A DNA stretch of 64,000 nucleotides. It comes from Ruania suaedae. Its GTDB lineage: Bacteria; Actinomycetota; Actinomycetes; Actinomycetales; Beutenbergiaceae. The notes under the pieces are model-generated. The model worked only from the letters and a program-made list of their open reading frames with translations, was not told the origin of the DNA and searched no databases. A program made the translations under genes and the position numbers. Location: contig NZ_CP088018.1 in NCBI RefSeq assembly GCF_021049265.1, positions 3,348,001 to 3,412,000 of the forward strand, given 5' to 3'. Each line of letters starts with the position of its first letter. The stretch's first letter is position 1. Shown here piece after piece: positions 36,739 to 47,270 of the stretch.

Positions 36739-37752
36739 TCAGGTACCGCCGACCGCCGCCGTGGACGCCCGCCGCACCAGCTCCGGCGCCGGGTCGTCCA
36801 CCACCCGGCTGATCGGCCCGGTCGCGTCGCCGCTCAGCAGCAGCTCCACCGCCGTCGACCCCAGCGCCCCCATCGGCAGCCGCACCGTGGTCAGCGCCGG
36901 TGAGCAGGTGATGGCGGGCCAGATGTCGTGAATCGCGACTACCGAGAGCTCCTCCGGTACCCGGATCCCCATCTGGGCCGCCTCGGTGAGTGCCCCGATC
37001 CCGGCGTTGACGTTGCCGACCACCAGCGCGGTGGGCCGGGGCTCCCGCCCGAGCAGCAGCCGGACGGCGTCCCGCGCCGAACGATAGGTGTAACCCAGTG
37101 TCGTGAGGTGCTCCCGGGCGAGCGTCAGACCCGCCTCGGCGAGCTCCTTCTCCACCCCTTCCTGACGGCGGCTGCTGGTGTCGGAGGCAGGGACGCCGCC
37201 GACGTAACCGATCGTCCGGTGCCCGAGCTCGAGCAGGTGGCGCGTGGCGAGCGCCCCGGCGGCGACGTCGTCGAGGCCGATGGTGCGCACCCCCTCGACC
37301 GGCCCGGAGTTGATCATCACGGTGTGCTCGGGGTGGGTCAGGGCCCGGGCCACCAGTTCGGTGGGGGCGCTGTCATCCTTCTGCAACAGCACACCGTCCA
37401 CCAGCCGCTCGTTGAGCAGCCGGTTGAAGCCCTCGCTGCCCGGTTGCATCCGCGGGCTGGAGGCGAGCAGCACCGAGTAGGAGTGGTCCAGCGCCCGGGT
37501 CTCCACGCCGTTGACCAGGTCGGTGAAGGTCGCGTTCGTCACGTCCGGGACCACGAGGGCGAGCAGGTGGGAGCGGGCCCGGCGCAGCGACCGGCCGGCC
37601 GAGTTCGGCGCGTAGCGCAACAGCCGCGCCGACTCCACCACGCGATCACGGGTCTCGGGCCGGATGCGGATGGTGGGATCGGAGTTGAGCACGCGCGAGA
37701 CCACCGAGACCGACACCCCGGCGTGAGCGGCCACATCGCGCAACGTCACCAT
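36739..37752 (-). CDS. LacI-family regulator of the GH95/importer locus
   Basis: This 337-aa protein has the LacI HTH and hinge (TLRDVAAHAGVSVSVVSRVL) and a sugar-binding core (LVVPDVTNATF; TIGYVGGVPAS; VPEELSVVAIHD). It is convergent with the GH95 operon. The promoter of its own gene overlaps a 12-bp site that recurs in the importer/GH95 divergent region, so I infer autorepression and control of both operons. A -10-like TACGAT ends 6 nt before ATG 37752, fitting a leaderless mRNA; GTG 37749 is an alternative start. Confidence 0.88.
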   Translation of the reverse strand: MVTLRDVAAHAGVSVSVVSRVLNSDPTIRIRPETRDRVVESARLLRYAPNSAGRSLRRARSHLLALVVPDVTNATFTDLVNGVETRALDHSYSVLLASSPRMQPGSEGFNRLLNERLVDGVLLQKDDSAPTELVARALTHPEHTVMINSGPVEGVRTIGLDDVAAGALATRHLLELGHRTIGYVGGVPASDTSSRRQEGVEKELAEAGLTLAREHLTTLGYTYRSARDAVRLLLGREPRPTALVVGNVNAGIGALTEAAQMGIRVPEELSVVAIHDIWPAITCSPALTTVRLPMGALGSTAVELLLSGDATGPISRVVDDPAPELVRRASTAAVGGT

Positions 37753-37876: not shown

Positions 37877-39943
37877 GTGCACGACTTCCCGCCGGACGTG
37901 GCGCCCTACCCCACCCGCCCCGAGGCCACCGCCTCGGTCCGCGGCGCGTTCCCGGACACCCGCAGCCCCGCCCGGTTCCTGTTCTGGCTGCTCGGCAAGC
38001 AGGCCTACGCCATGGTGGGCATGTTCGTCACCGGCATGCTGGTCTTCCTGCCCGGAGCGGCGGGACCGTACTTCGTGGGCCGCGCCGTCGACGAGGGCAT
38101 CACCGCCGGTTCCTGGGACGGGCTGCTGACCTGGTCGATGATCCTGCTCGGGATCATCGCCGTCGGGGCCTCGGTCGGGGTGCTGATGCACACCTACGCC
38201 GTGCACGGCTGGTTGCACGCGCTCTACCGCACCACCAAGCTCGTCACCCGCAAGACCACCCAGATGGGCCACGTGCTTCCGCAGCGGTTGCCGACCGGGG
38301 AGATCCTCTCGGTCTCCTCCTCCGACTCCGACAAGTACGGCGCCCTCAGCGAGGTGGTGGGCCGTGCCGCAGCCGCCCTGTTCGCCTACTTCGTGGTCGT
38401 CGCCCTGGTGCTGAGCACCTCGGTTCCGCTGGGGCTGCTGACCCTGGCCGCCGGCCCGGTGCTGGTGTTCGTGGCGACCCCGCTGCTGCGACCGCTGCAC
38501 CGGCGCCAGGCCACCGAGCGCAGCCGCTCCTCCGAGCTGACCTCCCTGGCCACCGACATCGTCGCGGGGCTGCGGATCCTGCGCGGCATCGGCGGGGAGC
38601 GCACCTTCGGGCGCAACTACGCCCGCCAGTCCCAGCTGGTGCGCAAAGCCGGGGTGGCCGCCGGGATCTGGCAGGGCGCCGTCGAGGCGGTGGGCACCCT
38701 GTTCTCCGGGCTCTTCCTGGTCATGCTCACCTGGTTCGGCACCCGGCTGGTCGCCCGCGGGGAGCTGCAGGTGGGCGAGCTGATCAGTTTCTTCGGCTAC
38801 GCGGTGTTCATGGTCGTGCCGATCTACACGTTCTTCGAGCTGGTCCAGAAGTGGGTGCAGTCCCTGGTCTCGGCGCGCAAGACCATCGCCCTGCTGGAGC
38901 AGCAGCCGCCCTGGGAGGAGCCCGAGACCACCGCGACGCTGCCCGCCCACGCGCCGATCCACGACGAGGCCACGGGCTTCACCGCGCACCCGGGCGAGCT
39001 GACGGTCGTGGTCTCGGACCTCCCGGACGACAGCGCCGCCCTGGCCGACCGGCTCGGGCGGTACCTGCCCACCGAGGCCGAACCGGTCAGCGCCGAGCTC
39101 GAGGAGGGCGTCAAGGGCCGGCGGGCGAAGCAGACCCGCGCCGAACGGCTCGCCGCCCGGCGCGCGCAGGCCGAACGGGACGCCGCCCGCGCACGACGGC
39201 GGTGGGGCGTCACGGTCGGGGGCGTCGACCTCTCCCAGGCTCGCCTGAGCGAGGTCCGCGAGCGCATCCTGGTCTCCGATACTGCGGCGATGGTCTTCGG
39301 CGGCACCCTGCAGCAGGCGCTCGACCCACACGGCCGGCTCACGCGGGCGCAGGCGGAGCAGGCGATGCTGGTCGCCTCCGCCGAGGACGTCTACGACGCC
39401 CTGCCCGGCGGCTGGCAAGGACACCTGGACGAGCGAGGGCGGGGCCTGTCCGGCGGGCAGCGGCAGCGGCTGGTGCTGGCCCGCGCGGTGGCGGCCGATC
39501 CGGAGGTGCTGGTGCTGGTGGAGCCGACCTCCGCCGTCGACGCCCACACCGAGGCCCGGATCGCCGAGCGCCTCAGCGCCCACCGGCGGGAGCGGACCAC
39601 GATCATCACCTCCGTATCGCCGCTGCTGCTGCACCACGCCGACCGGGTGGTGCTGCTGGCCGGGGGCACCGTGGCGGCCGAGGGCACCCATGCCGGGCTG
39701 CTGGCGTCCAGCGCCGCCTACCGCCGGGTGGTGGTGCGCAGCATGGAGGACGAGCCGGAGCCACTGGGGGACGCCGAGGCCCCCGAGGCTCCTGACGCCC
39801 CCGGTACCGCAGAGGCCCCGAGCCATCACGAGCACGTCCCCGACGGCGCCCACGGCACCGGACCGCTGCACCTGGGCAGCCCCGGTCATCCCGACACCCA
39901 GGCCATCATCCGTGAGGGCACGCAGGAGGTGCGCGATGTCTGA
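37877..39943 (+). CDS. ABC exporter half-transporter with degenerate nucleotide site
   Basis: This 688-aa protein has an exporter-type membrane domain (about residues 40-320) followed by an ATPase domain that lacks a Walker A loop: HPGELTVVVSDLPDDSA stands where GxxGxGKST should be. The Walker B Asp is Val548 (LVLVEPTSAVD), and there is no H-loop His (TIITSVSPLLL). The signature motif LSGGQRQR (residues 524-531) is perfect. It therefore cannot bind ATP canonically but can complete its partner's site. It overlaps the partner gene by 8 nt and has a charged insertion (about residues 405-445, Arg/Ala-rich). The cargo is unknown. Confidence 0.85.
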   Translation: MHDFPPDVAPYPTRPEATASVRGAFPDTRSPARFLFWLLGKQAYAMVGMFVTGMLVFLPGAAGPYFVGRAVDEGITAGSWDGLLTWSMILLGIIAVGASVGVLMHTYAVHGWLHALYRTTKLVTRKTTQMGHVLPQRLPTGEILSVSSSDSDKYGALSEVVGRAAAALFAYFVVVALVLSTSVPLGLLTLAAGPVLVFVATPLLRPLHRRQATERSRSSELTSLATDIVAGLRILRGIGGERTFGRNYARQSQLVRKAGVAAGIWQGAVEAVGTLFSGLFLVMLTWFGTRLVARGELQVGELISFFGYAVFMVVPIYTFFELVQKWVQSLVSARKTIALLEQQPPWEEPETTATLPAHAPIHDEATGFTAHPGELTVVVSDLPDDSAALADRLGRYLPTEAEPVSAELEEGVKGRRAKQTRAERLAARRAQAERDAARARRRWGVTVGGVDLSQARLSEVRERILVSDTAAMVFGGTLQQALDPHGRLTRAQAEQAMLVASAEDVYDALPGGWQGHLDERGRGLSGGQRQRLVLARAVAADPEVLVLVEPTSAVDAHTEARIAERLSAHRRERTTIITSVSPLLLHHADRVVLLAGGTVAAEGTHAGLLASSAAYRRVVVRSMEDEPEPLGDAEAPEAPDAPGTAEAPSHHEHVPDGAHGTGPLHLGSPGHPDTQAIIREGTQEVRDV

Positions 39944-41894
39944 GCACGACCACGGCACCGGCGCCGGCACCGACCCCGCGGCCGCCCTGCCCGGATCGGC
40001 GCAGACCTGGGCCGAGTCGAGCCCGGGTCCGGCGGTGCCCGACGAGCTGCGCCCGCCCCGCACCGGCCCCGTCCGCGAGCGCCTGGCAGCCTGGCGACGC
40101 CGGCACCTGCTGCGCGAACGCCGCGCCCACGAGACGTTTGAGAGCTCGCGCCACCCTGAACGCGGGCTGCCGGTGGCCACCGGGCCTGTCGTCTGGGCGT
40201 TCCTCAAGGAGCTGCTCGCCGGGCGCCGCCGGATCCTCATCGGCCTGTTGGTGCTGCACGCCCTCGCCGCGGTGGCGGGGCTGGTGGTGCCGCAGATCCT
40301 GCGGCGCCTGGTCGACAACGCTGCTGCCGGCACCACGGCGATGGCCACCCTCAACTCCCTAGCTCTGGCGGTGGCCGGGGTGGTGGTGGTGCAGGCCACG
40401 CTGACCTTCGCCGCGCGGGCGATCTCGGCTGTCTTCGGCCAGGACCTGCTCGCCGCCGCCCGCGAGTACGTGGTCCACACGGTGCTGCGACTGCCGCTGA
40501 GCACCGTGGAGGGCGCCAGCACGGGCGACCTGGTCACGCGGGTGACCCGCGATGTGGGCACGATGAGCGAGAGTGTGCGCTGGGGACTGCCCCAGGCGGT
40601 GGTGGCACTGGTGACGGTGATCCTCACCCTCGGCGCGATGGTCTACAACTCCCCGCTGCTGTCCCTGCCCTTGCTGCTGTCGGTGCCAGCGCTGGCCTTC
40701 GCGGTCACCCGCTACCTCAAGCGCGCCCCGGCCGGCTACATCACCGAGGGCAAGACCTACTCCGACATCAACTCCACGCTCACCGAGACCGTCGAGGGCG
40801 CACGCACTGTGGAGGCCTTCGGACTCGGGGACCGGCGCCGCGCGCTGGGCGACGAGGACATCGAGGTCTCGGCGCAGGCCGAGCGGTACACGATGAGCCT
40901 GCGGAACCTGCTGTTCATCGTGATCGACTTCGCCTACAACTCCCCGCTGGTGTGGACGTTGCTGCTCGGCGGAGTCGGCTACGCGAACGGCTGGGTGAGC
41001 CTGGGGCAGCTGACCGCCGCGATCCTCTACATCCAGGCCGTCGTCGAACCGCTCGACCGGCTGATCGCCAACGTCGACCGGCTGCAGGTAGGCGTGGCCT
41101 CGACCACCCGTCTGCTCGGGATCGCCGCGGTCCCGCAGGACCGCGAGCCGGGCGAGGCCGTCCCCGAGGGCATCACCCTGACCGGCACCGACCTTCGGTT
41201 CGCCTACCGCGAGGGCCACGACGTCCTGCACGGGGTGGACATGGACCTGCAGCCCGGCGAACGGCTCGCGATCGTCGGCCCGAGCGGGTCCGGCAAGTCC
41301 ACTCTCGGGCGGCTGCTGGCGGGTATCAACGGCCCCCGCACCGGCTCGGTCACGGTGGGCGGCGTGGAGCTGCTGGAGCTGCCGCTGGACCGGTTGCGTA
41401 CCGAAGTCGCGTTGGTCACCCAGGAGCACCACGTCTTCGTGGGATCAGTGCGGGACAACGTCACCCTGGCACGGGAGGACTCCGACGACGACGCCGTGGC
41501 TGAGGCGCTGGGCGCCACCGGTGCCTGGGAGTGGGTCCAGCGGCTGCCGGAGGGCCTGGACACGCTGGTGGGCTCGGGGAAGGTCCGGCTCACCCCCGCC
41601 CAGGCGCAGCAGATCGCCCTGGCCCGGTTGGTGGTGGCCGATCCGCACACGCTGGTGCTGGACGAGGCCACCAGCCTGATCGACCCCCGCACCGCCCGCA
41701 CGCTCGAGGGATCGATGTCGGCGCTGATGGAGGGCCGGGCGGTGGTGGCGATCGCGCACCGGCTGCACACCGCGCACGACGCCGACCGGATCGCGGTGGT
41801 GATCGATGGCCGGATCGCCGAACTCGGCAGTCACGAGGAGCTGATGGCTGCCGACGGGGCGTATGCGTCCTTGTGGCGGGCCTGGACGTCCTGA
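39936..41894 (+). CDS. ABC exporter half-transporter with intact Walker motifs
   Basis: This 652-aa partner of the preceding subunit has an exporter membrane domain at about residues 90-390 after a long cytoplasmic N-terminus. The ATPase domain has an intact Walker A GPSGSGKST (Lys454), Walker B LVLDEATS (Asp576, Glu577) and H-loop His608, but its signature is degenerate: LTPAQAQQ (from residue 552) instead of LSGGQ. Combined with the partner, one complete ATP site and one completely dead site result. It ends at a strong terminator. Confidence 0.88.
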   Translation: MSEHDHGTGAGTDPAAALPGSAQTWAESSPGPAVPDELRPPRTGPVRERLAAWRRRHLLRERRAHETFESSRHPERGLPVATGPVVWAFLKELLAGRRRILIGLLVLHALAAVAGLVVPQILRRLVDNAAAGTTAMATLNSLALAVAGVVVVQATLTFAARAISAVFGQDLLAAAREYVVHTVLRLPLSTVEGASTGDLVTRVTRDVGTMSESVRWGLPQAVVALVTVILTLGAMVYNSPLLSLPLLLSVPALAFAVTRYLKRAPAGYITEGKTYSDINSTLTETVEGARTVEAFGLGDRRRALGDEDIEVSAQAERYTMSLRNLLFIVIDFAYNSPLVWTLLLGGVGYANGWVSLGQLTAAILYIQAVVEPLDRLIANVDRLQVGVASTTRLLGIAAVPQDREPGEAVPEGITLTGTDLRFAYREGHDVLHGVDMDLQPGERLAIVGPSGSGKSTLGRLLAGINGPRTGSVTVGGVELLELPLDRLRTEVALVTQEHHVFVGSVRDNVTLAREDSDDDAVAEALGATGAWEWVQRLPEGLDTLVGSGKVRLTPAQAQQIALARLVVADPHTLVLDEATSLIDPRTARTLEGSMSALMEGRAVVAIAHRLHTAHDADRIAVVIDGRIAELGSHEELMAADGAYASLWRAWTS

Positions 41895-42026: not shown

Positions 42027-45000
42027 ATGCACTCGATGCCGAGCGCACCTGCACCGATCCCCGGTGCCGCGCCCGCCGCCCCCGCACTGCGGAGGCGAAC
42101 CGCCGGTCTGGTGATCGGCGCCCTCGTCGGTTCGGCGCTGATCGCAGCACCCGCTGCCGCAGCGCCGTTCGACCCGGTGACCGCAGCCGCGTACCTCGGT
42201 GCCGACAGCGCCGAGGACACCTCGCTACCGGAGACCGTCTCGGACGGCAGCACCGACCACGAGGTCACCTGGGACATCGGCGCGGACACCTTCGCGCTGC
42301 CGTACAGCACCGTCGAGGTCAGCGGCACGGCCGACGGCGAGCCCGTGACCGCCGTCGTGGAGGTCGTCCCCCCGGCCGAGTACCCGCTGACGTACTTCGT
42401 CGACGCCGGCCACGCCGGCGACTCGCAGAACCAGTGGTGGTCGGCCGACAGCGTCGACTCCCCCGCCCACACCGCCGTGGAAACCCTGAGCACGCTGCGC
42501 AACGAGGTGCCGGACCAGCGCTTCGCCGACGACGCGACCTGGGGCTACACCTACGACCTGCCCACCGACTACAAGCTCACCGTGCCCGGCGGCGACCCCG
42601 CGGCCGGCACCGACCTGTCGACCTTCGGCAAGTACGAGATCGGCGCCCGCACCAACAGCGACCACATCGACTACCGCCTCGACCTGGACCCGGGCACCTA
42701 CACGCTGACCAGCGGCTTCTACGAGTTCTACGCCGCCGGGCAGTCCAGGAACCGCCAGATCGACCCGACCCTGAGCTACCAGCTCGACGGCGCGGACGAG
42801 TCCCAGACCCTCGGCCGCGTGGCGGTGAGCACAGCCGCCAACAGCCCCGAGCCGATCCAGGACACCAGCGCCTTCACGATCCCCGACGGCGCCACGGAGG
42901 TCTCCCTGACCTACCAGCAGACCGGTGGCGAAGCCCCGGTGCTGAGCTGGTTCGCCATCGCCGAGGGCGACGCCGAGGATGTCATCGAGGGCGCCGTCGA
43001 CGCCGTGCCCGAGTACGTCGACGTGGCCATCGACGCCGCCGACATCGCGGCCGACAACGTCAACGGCCTCACCTTCAAGGGCTTCGGCACCCTGACGGCC
43101 AACAGCACCAGTGCCGTGCTGCTGGACTACAAGGCCGAGCACCCCGAGGCCTACGCCGAGATGATCCGGATCCTGTTCGCCGGTGAGCACCCGATCATGA
43201 ACCACGTCAAGATCGAGATGGGCAACGACCGCAACAACTCCACCGGCTCCGACGTGGCCACCATGCGCACCGAGGACGAGCCGGCGAACGTCACCCGCCA
43301 CCCGGGCTTCCAGCTGGCTGCCGACGCCCTCGCGGTCAACCCCGACCTGCAGGTCTCCATCCTCCGCTGGAACGCACCGGCCTGGGTGGACGGCAACGAC
43401 GACATCTACACCTGGTACAAGAACACGATCCTGGCGGCCTACCGCGAGTACGGCTACATGGTCGACTACGTCAACCCGGGCGTGAACGAGCACCAGGCCG
43501 ACCTGGCGTGGACCGAGGAGTACGCCGAGCGCCTCGCCACCGACACCACCGGCTACGTCAGCGACGACCCCACCCTGGCGGGGTTCCGCGACGGCGAGGC
43601 CGACCTGTTCCACCAGATCCAGACCGTGATCTCCGACGAGGTCGGCATCGGCACGTTCGGAGACGAGATCATCGCCGACGCCGACCTGCGCGAGGCGGTG
43701 GGCGCGGCGGCGTACCACTACAACACCAACGACGACGGCAACGGCAACTTCACCCGCCTCGCCGAGGAGTTCGACATGCAGGTGTGGAACAGCGAGGCCC
43801 AGGCCACGTTCTCCAACACCGCCTTCCGCCCGAACAACAACACCGCGGACCCGACCGTGCCCGGCACCGGGATCGGCGGGGCGTACAGCTCGCTGGAGAT
43901 GGCCAACACCATCGTCAAGGGCTTCGTGAACTCGCGCCGGACCCACTTCATCTACCAGCCGGCGATCGGCTCGTTCTACGAGGGCGGGCAGTACTCCTTC
44001 AAGGAGCTCGTCAGCGCCCGCGATCCGTGGTCGGGGTGGATGCACTACGACGCAGGCCTGGCCGTGCTGCAGCACTTCTCCAACTTCGCCGTGACCGGCT
44101 GGGAGAACGCCGACAACACCGCTGGTATCTGGCGGGCCATGCCGGAGGCCAGCGCGTCCGGAGCCACCGGCACCAACCCGGTGGTCGGGCGCAATGGTGA
44201 CCCGAACTACCTCACCCTCGCCGCTCCGGACGGCTCCGACTTCTCCACCGTCATCGTCAACGACTCCGAGGAGACCCTCACCTACCGCCTCAGCCCGGAG
44301 GGCTTCGGCCTCGACGGCGCACCGCTGGCGGTGTGGGAGACCCGCGCCGCCGAGGACGGCGAGGCCTTCAACGCGAACTACAAGGAGCGTCGGGCGGACG
44401 CCACGTCCGACGGCGGAGCCTACGTCGTCGAGGTGGCACCCTTCTCCATGACCACGGTGACGTCCCTGGACGTGACCGGTGACGAGGGCTGGACCGACCC
44501 GCTGCCCGTCGAGGGGGAGCGCACCGTGCTGGGTGAGGGCTCCGAGGACGGCGTGCTGTGGGCCGACGACTTCGACTACACCGACCGCACCGTCCCGCAG
44601 CTGACCGCCGAGGGCCAGGTCGGCACCGGGACCGACCCGTTCGTGGAGGCCCGCGGCGGCGAGACCGGCGCGATCCCGCTCTACACCTGGGACCGCAACG
44701 GCGCCTTCGAGGCCTACCTGGACGGCGAGGAGTGGGTGCTGCGCCAGCAGCTCGACCGCGAGGCGACCGGAGTGGGTGGCGCCTGGAACGGTGGTGACCC
44801 GATCACCGCGATCGGTGACCGCCGGTGGACCAACTACCGCGCCACGGTCGACGTGCGCTTCGAGCGGGAGACGACCGAGGGCAACTACGCCGCCGTCGGC
44901 GCCCGTTCCAGCGGCGGCGACAACTCCCAGAGCCTGGGGACCACGCCGTACGTGCTGCGGCTGGACCGTGACGGTGACTGGCAGTTCCTGCGGATGGGCT

Positions 45001-47270
45001 CGGTGGCCGATTCCGGTTCCGTCGGGTCCGCCGAGGATGTCGGCGAGGCCTGGCACGAGCTGTCCCTGCAGGTGGCCGGCGATCAGATCACCGGCTGGAT
45101 CAACGGCGAGCAGGTGCTCGACTGGACCGACCCGGCGCCCATCCGCTCCGGGTGGGTCGATCTGGCCAGCGGCTTCCACCACACCCAGTTCGACAACCTG
45201 TCCATCGAGCCGGTCGACTCCTACCTGCCCTACTACGGGGAGTACCTGGACGACCTGGAGATGACCGACCTGAGCGACCCGCCGGGCACGCAGCTGGTCT
45301 ACTCCGGCAGCTGGGACCACGCCGTGACGGCGAGCATGTACGAGTACCAGCGCACCACCTCGCGCACCTCCGAGCCGGGCGCCACGGTGGCGTACACCTT
45401 CACCGGGTCCGGACTGGACGTGCTGGGCCAGAACAACGGATCGGCGCGGTTCGAGGTGCGGGTGGACGGTGAGCTCGTCGAGGCCGCCGCCGGCACGCAG
45501 GCCAGCGGTCAGTTCGAGCAGATGTACTCGCTTCGGGGACTGCCTCACGAGGAGCACACGGTCAGCCTGGAGCTCGTCTCCGGGTCGTTGACCGTCGACG
45601 CGGTCGCGGTGCACACCGAGACCCCGGCCGAGCCCGCGAGCACGCAAGGTCTGGCCGAGCTGCTCACGCGCGCCGAGCAGATCGAGCGGTCGGACGACTT
45701 CACCGACGCCGGCTGGGAGGCGCTGCAGCACGCGATCTCCTCCGCGCAGGCCGCGGTGTCCGACCCGGCCGGATACGGTCTGGGAGCCGAGGGCGCCGCC
45801 CAGCTCGCTGACCGGCTGCGGGCCGCGCAGGCCCCCCTGTGGGACCAGATCGACTCGGTCGAGGACGTACGGGTGGCCACGCTCGTGGGCATCCAGCCCG
45901 AGCTGCCGGAGACGGTGACGGTCACGCTCACCGATGAGAGCACGCGGGAGATCACCGTCGAGTGGCCCGCCGAGGTCGACGTCTCCCAGGCATGGGATGG
46001 CGTCACGGTGAACGGTCAGTACGGCGGAGCGAGCATTCCCGCCACGGTCGAGGTGATTCCCTCGGGCGTGGTGGCCTTCGCCGACATCAACGGCACCGAG
46101 GCCTCGCTCGGATCCACCTCGCCGTCGTGGGAGGTCATCGCTGACGCGGCGGGCGATCTGATCAATGAGACCCCCGACCAGCCGTTCGACGGCGACTGGG
46201 GTCACGCGGGCCAGAACGCCGGCGGCTCGGCCGAGGTCAGCTTCAAGGCGCCGGTGGACGGCGTCCACAGCAAGCTGACCACCACCGGCATGTACACCTC
46301 GAACGCCGAGGGCTCGCAGCTGTCGTACACATTCACCCTGCCTGCGGGTGAGTACGAACTCGCGGCCGGGAGCCACTCCTGGTGGGCGGACAACGCCCGC
46401 ACCGCGGACGTCGTGCTCAGCTACGACGGCGAGGAGCAGGTGGTCGACTCGGTGACCCTGGACTCCGGCTCCCCGAGTGCGCTGCTGGAGTACGACGTCG
46501 AGCTGGAGGCCGACGGTCCCGTGACGCTGACGCTGCGCAACACCAGCAGCCAGTCCCCGATGCTGAGCTGGGTGGGTGTGGCCGAGGCCGAGCCTGCGCT
46601 GACCGGCATCGAGGTCACGAGCGCTCCCGACCAGGTGGAGTACGCCCAGGGCGAGGAGCTCGACCTGACCGGGCTCGAGGTCACCGCCTCTTACTCCGAC
46701 GGCGTGGAGACGGTGCTGGACAACGACGCGCTGGCGATCACCGGGTACGACTCGCAGACCCTCGGCGTGCAGGAGATCGGCGTGCTCTACACCGAGACCG
46801 CGCCGCCGCTGCACACCCGGGCGGTCGGCGACGTCGCCTCCACCACGTTCGAGGTGACCGTGGTCGAGCAGTCCGACGGTTCGGACGGCGGTAGTGATGG
46901 CGGATCGGACGGCGGGGCCGATGGTTCCGACGGCGCAGCTGACGGTGGTTCGGACGGCTCCGACGCCGGCTCCGACGGCGCAGCTGACGGTGGTTCGGAC
47001 GGTTCCGACGCCGGCTCCGACAGCGGGGCCGATGGTTCTGACGCCGGTTCCGACGGCGGCACTGACGGCTCCGACGCCGGCTCCGATGATTCGGTCGGCT
47101 CCGATGCAGACTCCGACAGCGATCCGTCCGACGACCAGACCGACGACCAAGCCGGCGAAGGCGAGCTGCCCGTCAGCGGCGCCGCCGTGGGTGGCCTCAT
47201 CGCTCTGGCCCTGGCCCTGCTGGTCGCCGGCGCACTGCTCATCGTGCGGCGTCACCGCAGCATCGCCTGA
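42027..47270 (+). CDS. Giant cell-wall-anchored GH59-like glycosidase
   Basis: This 1747-aa surface protein has a signal peptide (cleavage near residue 46) and an N-terminal carbohydrate-binding-type domain. The catalytic region (about 340-835) resembles GH59 galactocerebrosidase-type beta-galactosidases, with candidate catalytic Glu488 in NPGVNEHQAD and Glu590 in VWNSEAQATF. A LamG-like beta-sandwich (850-1060), a FIVAR-like helical bundle, further Ig-like and binding domains, a Ser/Gly/Asp stalk and a sorting signal LPVSG (1714-1718) with membrane helix and RRHRS tail follow. It probably cleaves beta-galactosides of plant polymers at the cell surface. AAAGGAG precedes the ATG. Confidence 0.8.
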   Translation: MHSMPSAPAPIPGAAPAAPALRRRTAGLVIGALVGSALIAAPAAAAPFDPVTAAAYLGADSAEDTSLPETVSDGSTDHEVTWDIGADTFALPYSTVEVSGTADGEPVTAVVEVVPPAEYPLTYFVDAGHAGDSQNQWWSADSVDSPAHTAVETLSTLRNEVPDQRFADDATWGYTYDLPTDYKLTVPGGDPAAGTDLSTFGKYEIGARTNSDHIDYRLDLDPGTYTLTSGFYEFYAAGQSRNRQIDPTLSYQLDGADESQTLGRVAVSTAANSPEPIQDTSAFTIPDGATEVSLTYQQTGGEAPVLSWFAIAEGDAEDVIEGAVDAVPEYVDVAIDAADIAADNVNGLTFKGFGTLTANSTSAVLLDYKAEHPEAYAEMIRILFAGEHPIMNHVKIEMGNDRNNSTGSDVATMRTEDEPANVTRHPGFQLAADALAVNPDLQVSILRWNAPAWVDGNDDIYTWYKNTILAAYREYGYMVDYVNPGVNEHQADLAWTEEYAERLATDTTGYVSDDPTLAGFRDGEADLFHQIQTVISDEVGIGTFGDEIIADADLREAVGAAAYHYNTNDDGNGNFTRLAEEFDMQVWNSEAQATFSNTAFRPNNNTADPTVPGTGIGGAYSSLEMANTIVKGFVNSRRTHFIYQPAIGSFYEGGQYSFKELVSARDPWSGWMHYDAGLAVLQHFSNFAVTGWENADNTAGIWRAMPEASASGATGTNPVVGRNGDPNYLTLAAPDGSDFSTVIVNDSEETLTYRLSPEGFGLDGAPLAVWETRAAEDGEAFNANYKERRADATSDGGAYVVEVAPFSMTTVTSLDVTGDEGWTDPLPVEGERTVLGEGSEDGVLWADDFDYTDRTVPQLTAEGQVGTGTDPFVEARGGETGAIPLYTWDRNGAFEAYLDGEEWVLRQQLDREATGVGGAWNGGDPITAIGDRRWTNYRATVDVRFERETTEGNYAAVGARSSGGDNSQSLGTTPYVLRLDRDGDWQFLRMGSVADSGSVGSAEDVGEAWHELSLQVAGDQITGWINGEQVLDWTDPAPIRSGWVDLASGFHHTQFDNLSIEPVDSYLPYYGEYLDDLEMTDLSDPPGTQLVYSGSWDHAVTASMYEYQRTTSRTSEPGATVAYTFTGSGLDVLGQNNGSARFEVRVDGELVEAAAGTQASGQFEQMYSLRGLPHEEHTVSLELVSGSLTVDAVAVHTETPAEPASTQGLAELLTRAEQIERSDDFTDAGWEALQHAISSAQAAVSDPAGYGLGAEGAAQLADRLRAAQAPLWDQIDSVEDVRVATLVGIQPELPETVTVTLTDESTREITVEWPAEVDVSQAWDGVTVNGQYGGASIPATVEVIPSGVVAFADINGTEASLGSTSPSWEVIADAAGDLINETPDQPFDGDWGHAGQNAGGSAEVSFKAPVDGVHSKLTTTGMYTSNAEGSQLSYTFTLPAGEYELAAGSHSWWADNARTADVVLSYDGEEQVVDSVTLDSGSPSALLEYDVELEADGPVTLTLRNTSSQSPMLSWVGVAEAEPALTGIEVTSAPDQVEYAQGEELDLTGLEVTASYSDGVETVLDNDALAITGYDSQTLGVQEIGVLYTETAPPLHTRAVGDVASTTFEVTVVEQSDGSDGGSDGGSDGGADGSDGAADGGSDGSDAGSDGAADGGSDGSDAGSDSGADGSDAGSDGGTDGSDAGSDDSVGSDADSDSDPSDDQTDDQAGEGELPVSGAAVGGLIALALALLVAGALLIVRRHRSIA
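46929..47018 (+). repeat. Tandem 45-bp repeat in the stalk of the GH59-like protein
   Basis: Two 45-bp copies (46929-46973 and 46974-47018) differ at one base and encode DGAADGGSDGSDAGS twice. They are the clearest part of a low-complexity Ser/Gly/Asp stalk (46875-47156) that spaces the enzyme from the wall. Confidence 0.8.

Follow-up and report, generated by a model that had tools for sequence, protein, structure and literature searches.

The degenerate subunits of the ATP-binding cassette (ABC) exporters TM287/288, TmrAB and BmrCD retain a Walker A motif that binds nucleotide, and it has yet to be settled why a catalytically silent site persists in many ABC exporters. One recent explanation draws on MsRv1273c/72c of Mycobacterium smegmatis, in which ATP is held at the degenerate site by the Walker A and the A-loop that MsRv1273c provides, and acts as glue; the passages cited call the resulting partial dimer indispensable (PMC12038006). 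Here we describe two overlapping genes in a 64,000-nucleotide stretch of the Ruania suaedae genome (contig NZ_CP088018.1; the whole stretch is referred to hereafter as the window, and coordinates are window positions). Judged from their sequences, they probably encode a type I ABC exporter that is obligately heterodimeric and works with one ATP per dimer, its dead site being made of protein only. MsRv1273c/72c is, on the account cited, likewise a type I heterodimer from an actinobacterium in which one site is degenerate, yet the Walker A and A-loop present in MsRv1273c are both absent from its counterpart in the window (subunit 1). TM287/288, TmrAB and BmrCD share the fold and subunit logic of the pair.

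In the yeast transporter Pdr5 none of the four site 1 motifs is intact: the Walker A Lys, the Walker B Glu and the H-loop His are changed, as is the signature that faces them (PMC7756269, PMC8421411). The deviant site, called the most extreme case in the passages cited, still holds ATP in the structure (PMC8421411, PMC7756269). Pdr5 is a full-length ABCG-like protein with its nucleotide-binding domains (NBDs) first, whereas the window pair is two genes with the transmembrane domain (TMD) before the NBD, an order other than that of the pleiotropic drug resistance type. The changed Walker B residue described for Pdr5 is the Glu and not the Asp, whereas in subunit 1 the whole P-loop and the A-loop are replaced or lost. 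A one-nucleotide state has been reported for the NBD heterodimer of Escherichia coli DppBCDF, which in the account cited does not switch in that state and holds two nucleotides in its DppA-bound form (PMC12136057); unlike the window pair, DppBCDF is an importer.

Two half-transporters with complementary nucleotide sites

In both proteins a TMD matching ABC_membrane (PF00664) precedes an NBD matching ABC_tran (PF00005), each above its curated cut-off (28 and 25 bits, respectively): the two domains score 95.5 and 30.6 bits in subunit 1, and 114.5 and 83.5 bits in subunit 2. The ABC_tran match on subunit 1 covers residues 504–552 only, corresponding to the C-terminal part of the model (positions 96–137 of 137). 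Fold comparison places TM287 (3qf4_A, the best match, Foldseek E 7.4e-29), MsRv1273c and TmrAB chain B at the head of the list for subunit 1 (VIA Z 26.9 over 553 residues to 9iqg_A), and MsRv1272c for subunit 2 (Foldseek E 1.5e-31 to 9iqg_B). In MsRv1273c/72c it is chain A (MsRv1273c by chain length) that matches the fold of subunit 1 and chain B that of subunit 2, and the fold matches of subunit 1 include ATP-bound structure entries. By domain content and modelled exporter fold, both subunits are type I ABC exporter half-transporters. No named NCBIfam exporter model reached its cut-off among the best 25 of 51 matches for subunit 1 and the best 25 of 125 for subunit 2. No family member was found by sequence among solved chains, where the family profile scored highest against full-length P-glycoprotein (334 bits; TM287, 247 bits), most members reaching at least 500 bits with a related profile.

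An earlier note on this DNA had proposed that subunit 1 lacks Walker A, the Walker B Asp and the H-loop His while keeping a perfect LSGGQ, and that subunit 2 has all of these motifs and the signature LTPAQAQQ. Frames, coordinates and alignment bear this out. Subunit 2 carries an A-loop Tyr (Y424), GPSGSGKST, Q496, D576/E577 and H608; the full signature stretch of subunit 1 is LSGGQRQR. Two refinements are needed. The P-loop of subunit 1 is gone as a motif, as the note had said, and it has been substituted, not deleted: SDLPDDSAA aligns residue for residue, and at the same length, with GPSGSGKST of subunit 2. The half-site is also less than completely degenerate, contrary to the note: P-loop, Asp and H-loop His are lost, but the Walker B Glu is retained (E549; 130 of 146 readable family members). 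The alignment further shows that the N-terminal strands bearing the A-loop are absent from the subunit 1 NBD. A P-loop elsewhere in subunit 1, which the note had named as a finding that would overturn its reading, was looked for and none was found.

In the complete site (site 2), subunit 2 would thus supply Walker A, Walker B and the A-, Q- and H-loops, and subunit 1 the LSGGQ, X-loop and D-loop; one ATP would be bound and hydrolysed there per cycle. Because a complete site arises only from subunit 1 together with subunit 2, the heterodimer is obligate by motif logic. Site 1 would set the former P-loop of subunit 1 opposite the former signature of subunit 2; its phosphate ligands are gone from both subunits and it has become acidic, and it is most likely nucleotide-free, serving as a protein-only contact or hinge.

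Subunit 1 also stands apart within its own genome (3.56 Mb). Among 97 ABC_tran matches, it alone scores above cut-off without the Walker A part and without an N-terminal companion match in frame, and G-x4-G-K-[ST] is present in 25/25 ABC frames from 19 other stretches of that genome.

A family with the same pattern

A first search of 39 relatives gave matches in 27; none of the 27 readable loci, among them that of the window itself, has the P-loop, and a 28th locus, L013, has no frame with a signature. A scan of an 84,980-species collection found at least 569 encoded relatives, the best 80 of which were kept; these are titled Actinomycetota, except for one metagenome-assembled genome labelled Spirochaetaceae. 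The contig of the latter (L101) carries the full pair, and misbinning is possible. Two genome draws covered Actinobacteria, as phylum and as class. An even draw of 396 genomes across the phylum gave a match at E <= 1e-70 in 54, classical exporters near the threshold included, and the class draw placed the family in 136 of 296 genomes at E <= 1e-85, counted by score and not by reading each match. Among sequences that were read, classical exporters score up to 285 bits and the family from 270 bits, all but its lowest member reaching at least 288. On plasmids, tblastn returned five records, all from Streptomyces, Nonomuraea or Arthrobacter. The search for relatives used a profile built from P-loop-less members (the best-80 scan also used the peptides SAVDAHTE and R[IV]LRG[IV]GGE), and a relative was assigned to the subunit 1 type when it scored higher with the P-loop-less profile than with that of the partner. 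The deduplicated set, aligned to one joint NBD model, holds 148 open reading frames (ORFs) of the subunit 1 type and 146 of the subunit 2 type, the window's included. One annotated relative (H2) is labelled merely "ABC transporter ATP-binding protein".

Across the subunit 1 type, the Walker A Lys is found in none of the 147 ORFs with a letter at that column (one of the 148 has a gap), the A-loop aromatic in 1/148 (the column being absent in 144), the Q-loop Gln in 1/147 and the H-loop His in 0/146, while SGG is kept in 147/147. The Walker B Asp survives in 15 of 146 readable members; DE is retained in one 11-member clade within the family, and the Asp has been lost in at least two other branches. 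In a branch whose Walker B reads HD, the D-loop Asp of the partner is replaced by Gly in 3/3 pairs scored. The partner ORFs of L159–L168, whose subunit 1 has this HD, show a D-loop like DEATAEAGS in place of DEATSLID, and the dead site therefore seems further eroded there. A P-loop regular expression matched once in the family (GLVSAGKS in L064); the match sits in the linker between TM6 and the NBD, and a hidden P-loop was rejected on this ground.

Partners of the subunit 2 type, gaps aside, show the reverse: A-loop Tyr in 146/146, Walker A Lys in 144/144, Q-loop Gln in 141/141, Walker B DE in 117/117 and H-loop His in 116/116, with SGG in none of the 116 that have a complete NBD. In all 89 loci with both NBDs complete the motif patterns are complementary and the two genes share a strand, that of subunit 1 coming first. 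The proposal of one full and one dead ATP site consequently holds at the level of motifs in 89/89 loci, the death of site 1 for ATP binding being the reading we draw from them. The other finding that would have undone the proposal, orthologues with restored motifs, was looked for as well: no member regains a P-loop or an H-loop His, and the Walker B Asp is confined to the 15 members given above.

Remodelling of the former P-loop

The former P-loop has acquired a pattern of its own, S-A-x-P-[DE]-[DE]-[SA]-A, with Pro at column four in 130/147, then Asp or Glu in 115/147 and again in 93/147; the helix that follows is conserved (R 90%, L 88%, G 86%, R 80%), and it alone is less variable (1.07 bits, with an NBD median of 1.69). 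In the model of subunit 1 (mean predicted local distance difference test score, pLDDT, 88.2; 58 sequences), a strand at residues 375–380 is followed by a helix at 383–393, and the phosphate-wrapping loop therefore looks like an acidic helix N-cap.

This substitution coincides with an inversion of charge. Over the nine P-loop columns the mean charge is −1.9 in subunit 1 and +1 in the partner; over the eight signature columns it is −0.05 in the partner, where both arginines of Q-R-Q-R are lost (mostly to Ala, and to Gln), and +1.9 in subunit 1. Adding the means of the facing motifs gives totals of about −2.0 for the dead site, +2.9 for the live site and +1.3 for a classical degenerate site.

The region also appears constrained among close relatives. 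In six close species pairs, the ratio of nonsynonymous to synonymous substitution rates (dN/dS) for residues 374–396 is 0 to 0.19. It is lower than for residues 345–400 (0.13–0.48; this segment contains 374–396) and 445–620 (0.06–0.23) in all six pairs, and lower than for the TMD (0.07–0.28) in five of them.

Origin of the family

The next P-loop-bearing relatives are 48 ORFs from 25 loci, mostly paired classical heterodimers, of which 24 are LSGGQ subunits (Walker B DD in 18, DE in 6) and 24 are others with mostly LSAGE- or LSAGQ-type signatures. All 48 keep the Walker A Lys, which upholds the claim that the loss in subunit 1 goes beyond the usual degenerate site, and all 48 keep the A-loop aromatic; the 24/24 LSGGQ subunits with a Walker A are thus unlike subunit 1. 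Set against the features of classical degenerate exporters, the pair shows the changed signature (LTPAQAQQ) but keeps the Glu that is changed in the classical site (E549), having lost Asp, P-loop and H-loop His. The retention of Walker A and A-loop in both NBDs that marks the classical type is absent, as the family counts of both motifs in subunit 1 show.

Trees were built with FastTree from a 158-protein sample (61 subunit 1 type, 36 subunit 2 type and 48 classical proteins, with 13 more from the same genome as the window). Both in the full tree and in that of the NBD, each family subunit type falls into a single clade (1.0). A single loss of the P-loop in the family is well supported, because the subunit 1 type is one clade in the full, TMD and NBD trees alike. 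Subunit 1 groups with the LSGGQ subunits (84/85 plus 3 others, 0.985, in the full tree; 84/85 plus 2 others, 0.968, in the NBD tree), and subunit 2, more weakly, with the other classical subunits (0.748 and 0.791). The family thus probably branched off ordinary heterodimers with one degenerate site; descent from such a classical heterodimer is likely but not settled.

Weighing the proposed protein-only site against alternatives

Several observations weigh against a single-ATP exporter with a protein-only site, or against the ancestry proposed for it. The structure models of subunits 1 and 2 are monomers. The dN/dS values come from a simple counting method applied, for residues 374–396, to just 23 codons, and in one of the six pairs the TMD has a lower ratio than the former P-loop. 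Family-wide, the nine P-loop columns are more variable than the NBD median (2.1 versus 1.69 bits), and a Lys or Arg occurs somewhere within them in 45/147. The retained Walker B Glu is unexplained if the site is simply dead. Family membership is partly circular, because relatives were both found and classed with P-loop-less profiles; as an independent check, the subunit 1 proteins are still one clade in a tree of the TMD alone (0.988). That same tree joins the two family subunits to each other (97 plus 5 others, 0.891), which counts against each having arisen from one of the two subunits of a classical pair. The nearest neighbours of subunit 1 in the full tree are two exporters that have a P-loop and are encoded in the same genome as the window (in L030 and L038); they lie closer to it than the classical LSGGQ subunits do (0.928).

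Of the alternatives, the one that survives best, which we nevertheless hold to be unlikely, is that site 1 binds a nucleotide or another anion non-canonically through residues outside the classical motifs, the family then being the far end of known degenerate exporters. Conservation of E549 and of the arginines in the helix after the former P-loop is in keeping with such binding, as is the ATP found in Pdr5 site 1 despite four altered motifs (PMC8421411, PMC7756269). As described in the passages cited, however, the Walker A of Pdr5 survives, altered by a single Lys-to-Cys substitution (PMC7756269). In the present family the Gly-rich loop and the A-loop strands are gone, as are the signature arginines of the partner, and acids have been added.

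It is improbable that site 1 became superfluous and decayed neutrally, its present sequence having no function of its own. The above-median variability of the nine columns is what such erosion would give; the shared S-x-x-P-[DE]-[DE] pattern and the conserved helix behind it speak against it, as does the dN/dS of residues 374–396, which lies under that of both NBD halves in 6/6 close pairs.

SUR and CFTR likewise have asymmetric ATP sites, and the complex might by analogy be an ATP-gated regulator or channel and not a pump; this we regard as very improbable, given that the catalytic Glu and His of the live site are present in all readable partners, that both folds are exporter-like and that no partner gene recurs beside the pair. 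A sequencing error or pseudogene, for which no point was found in favour, is refuted by the relatives: the frames are open, the same pattern recurs in many genomes, and dN/dS in the TMD and in each NBD half lies well below 1.

A natural test of the silent-site nucleotide

Among described systems, degenerate heterodimers are already known. Searches of the open-access literature, judged by titles and the opening lines of abstracts, turned up neither an exporter subunit that lacks the P-loop nor a whole family that has lost P-loop and A-loop while the charge on the two faces of the site is inverted. The lanthipeptide exporters RamA/RamB and AmfA/AmfB were considered as a lead, on which literature searches yielded nothing of use.

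The reading of one ATP per dimer contrasts with the published models, as given in the passages cited, of glue ATP (PMC12038006) and of ATP in the deviant site of Pdr5 (PMC8421411). Where the first of these makes the partial dimer held by silent-site ATP indispensable, an entire family, common in its class by score, seems to have dispensed with that ATP in the course of evolution. We therefore put forward, as a plausible but tentative proposition, that a large natural class of ABC exporters might run on a single nucleotide for each NBD dimer, with a charge-inverted, self-capped protein clamp at the dead site in place of "ATP glue", so that the nucleotide of a degenerate site would be dispensable for alternating access. 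As natural single-site exporters, such pairs would bear on questions of stoichiometry, coupling and hinge models, and would offer a natural test of the need for ATP at the silent site.

Features and neighbourhood of the locus

Table 1. Features of the exporter pair, with window coordinates, strand and the evidence for each.
Feature	Position	Strand	Evidence or remark
Subunit 1, half-transporter, 688 aa, NBD without P-loop	37877..39943	+	ORF; ABC_membrane 60–315; partial ABC_tran 504–552
Former Walker A region of subunit 1, residues 374–396 (ELTVVVSDLPDDSAALADRLGRY)	38996..39064	+	Alignment, counts, model, dN/dS
Charged insert of subunit 1, residues 401–444, mostly predicted helix (414–440)	39077..39208	+	Structure model; relatives
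Intact signature LSGGQ of subunit 1, predicted to serve the live site	39446..39460	+	SGG 147/147
Walker B of subunit 1, VLVLVE (VLVLVEPTSAVD)	39506..39523	+	Asp replaced by V548; catalytic-type Glu E549 retained
H-loop position of subunit 1, Val580 (TSVSPLL)	39614..39616	+	His in 0/146 readable relatives
GGAGG, likely ribosome-binding site of subunit 2	39925..39929	+	Sequence, 6 nt before ATG 39936
Subunit 2, half-transporter, 652 aa, full nucleotide-binding motifs, degenerate signature	39936..41894	+	ORF, Pfam, alignment
Walker A of subunit 2, GPSGSGKST	41277..41303	+	Lys in 144/144 readable partners
Degenerate signature of subunit 2, LTPAQAQQ	41589..41612	+	SGG 0/116 complete partners; QQ nearly invariant
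Walker B Asp-Glu of subunit 2 (D576, E577)	41661..41666	+	DE in 117/117 readable partners
H-loop His of subunit 2 (H608)	41757..41759	+	His in 116/116 readable partners

The start of subunit 1 is supported by the motif (M/V)xDFPP, kept in the aligned near relatives L006, L008 and L009, and the ATG of subunit 2 gives an 8-nt overlap between the genes. The charged insert behind the former P-loop is not a genus-specific feature: a long insert occupies the same site in 32/147 relatives, which make up the window's own branch, and is absent from most others. The C-terminal tail of subunit 1 (39743–39930, + strand) is rich in Asp, Glu and Pro and in His; it is predicted to be disordered (pLDDT <50) and is fast-evolving in most pairs (dN/dS 0.19–0.71).

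Clustering of the flanking ORFs of 90 loci revealed no recurring neighbour gene: the two largest clusters (53 and 39 loci) were judged to be antisense shadow frames of the pair, and none of the others among the 25 listed exceeds 12 loci. Upstream, a LacI-family regulator gene (36739–37752, − strand) lies divergent from the pair. It was considered as the pair's regulator and dropped because it has a close match in just one of nine loci (six from the same genus and three more distant). In the same nine loci, the downstream GH59 gene is matched in four. It encodes a galactocerebrosidase-like protein of 1747 aa (42027–47270, + strand) with catalytic and C-terminal domains and immunoglobulin-like domains. 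By eye, its C-terminus shows Ser-Asp-Gly-rich repeats together with an LPVSG-like motif and a membrane helix, and the protein is therefore perhaps wall-anchored.

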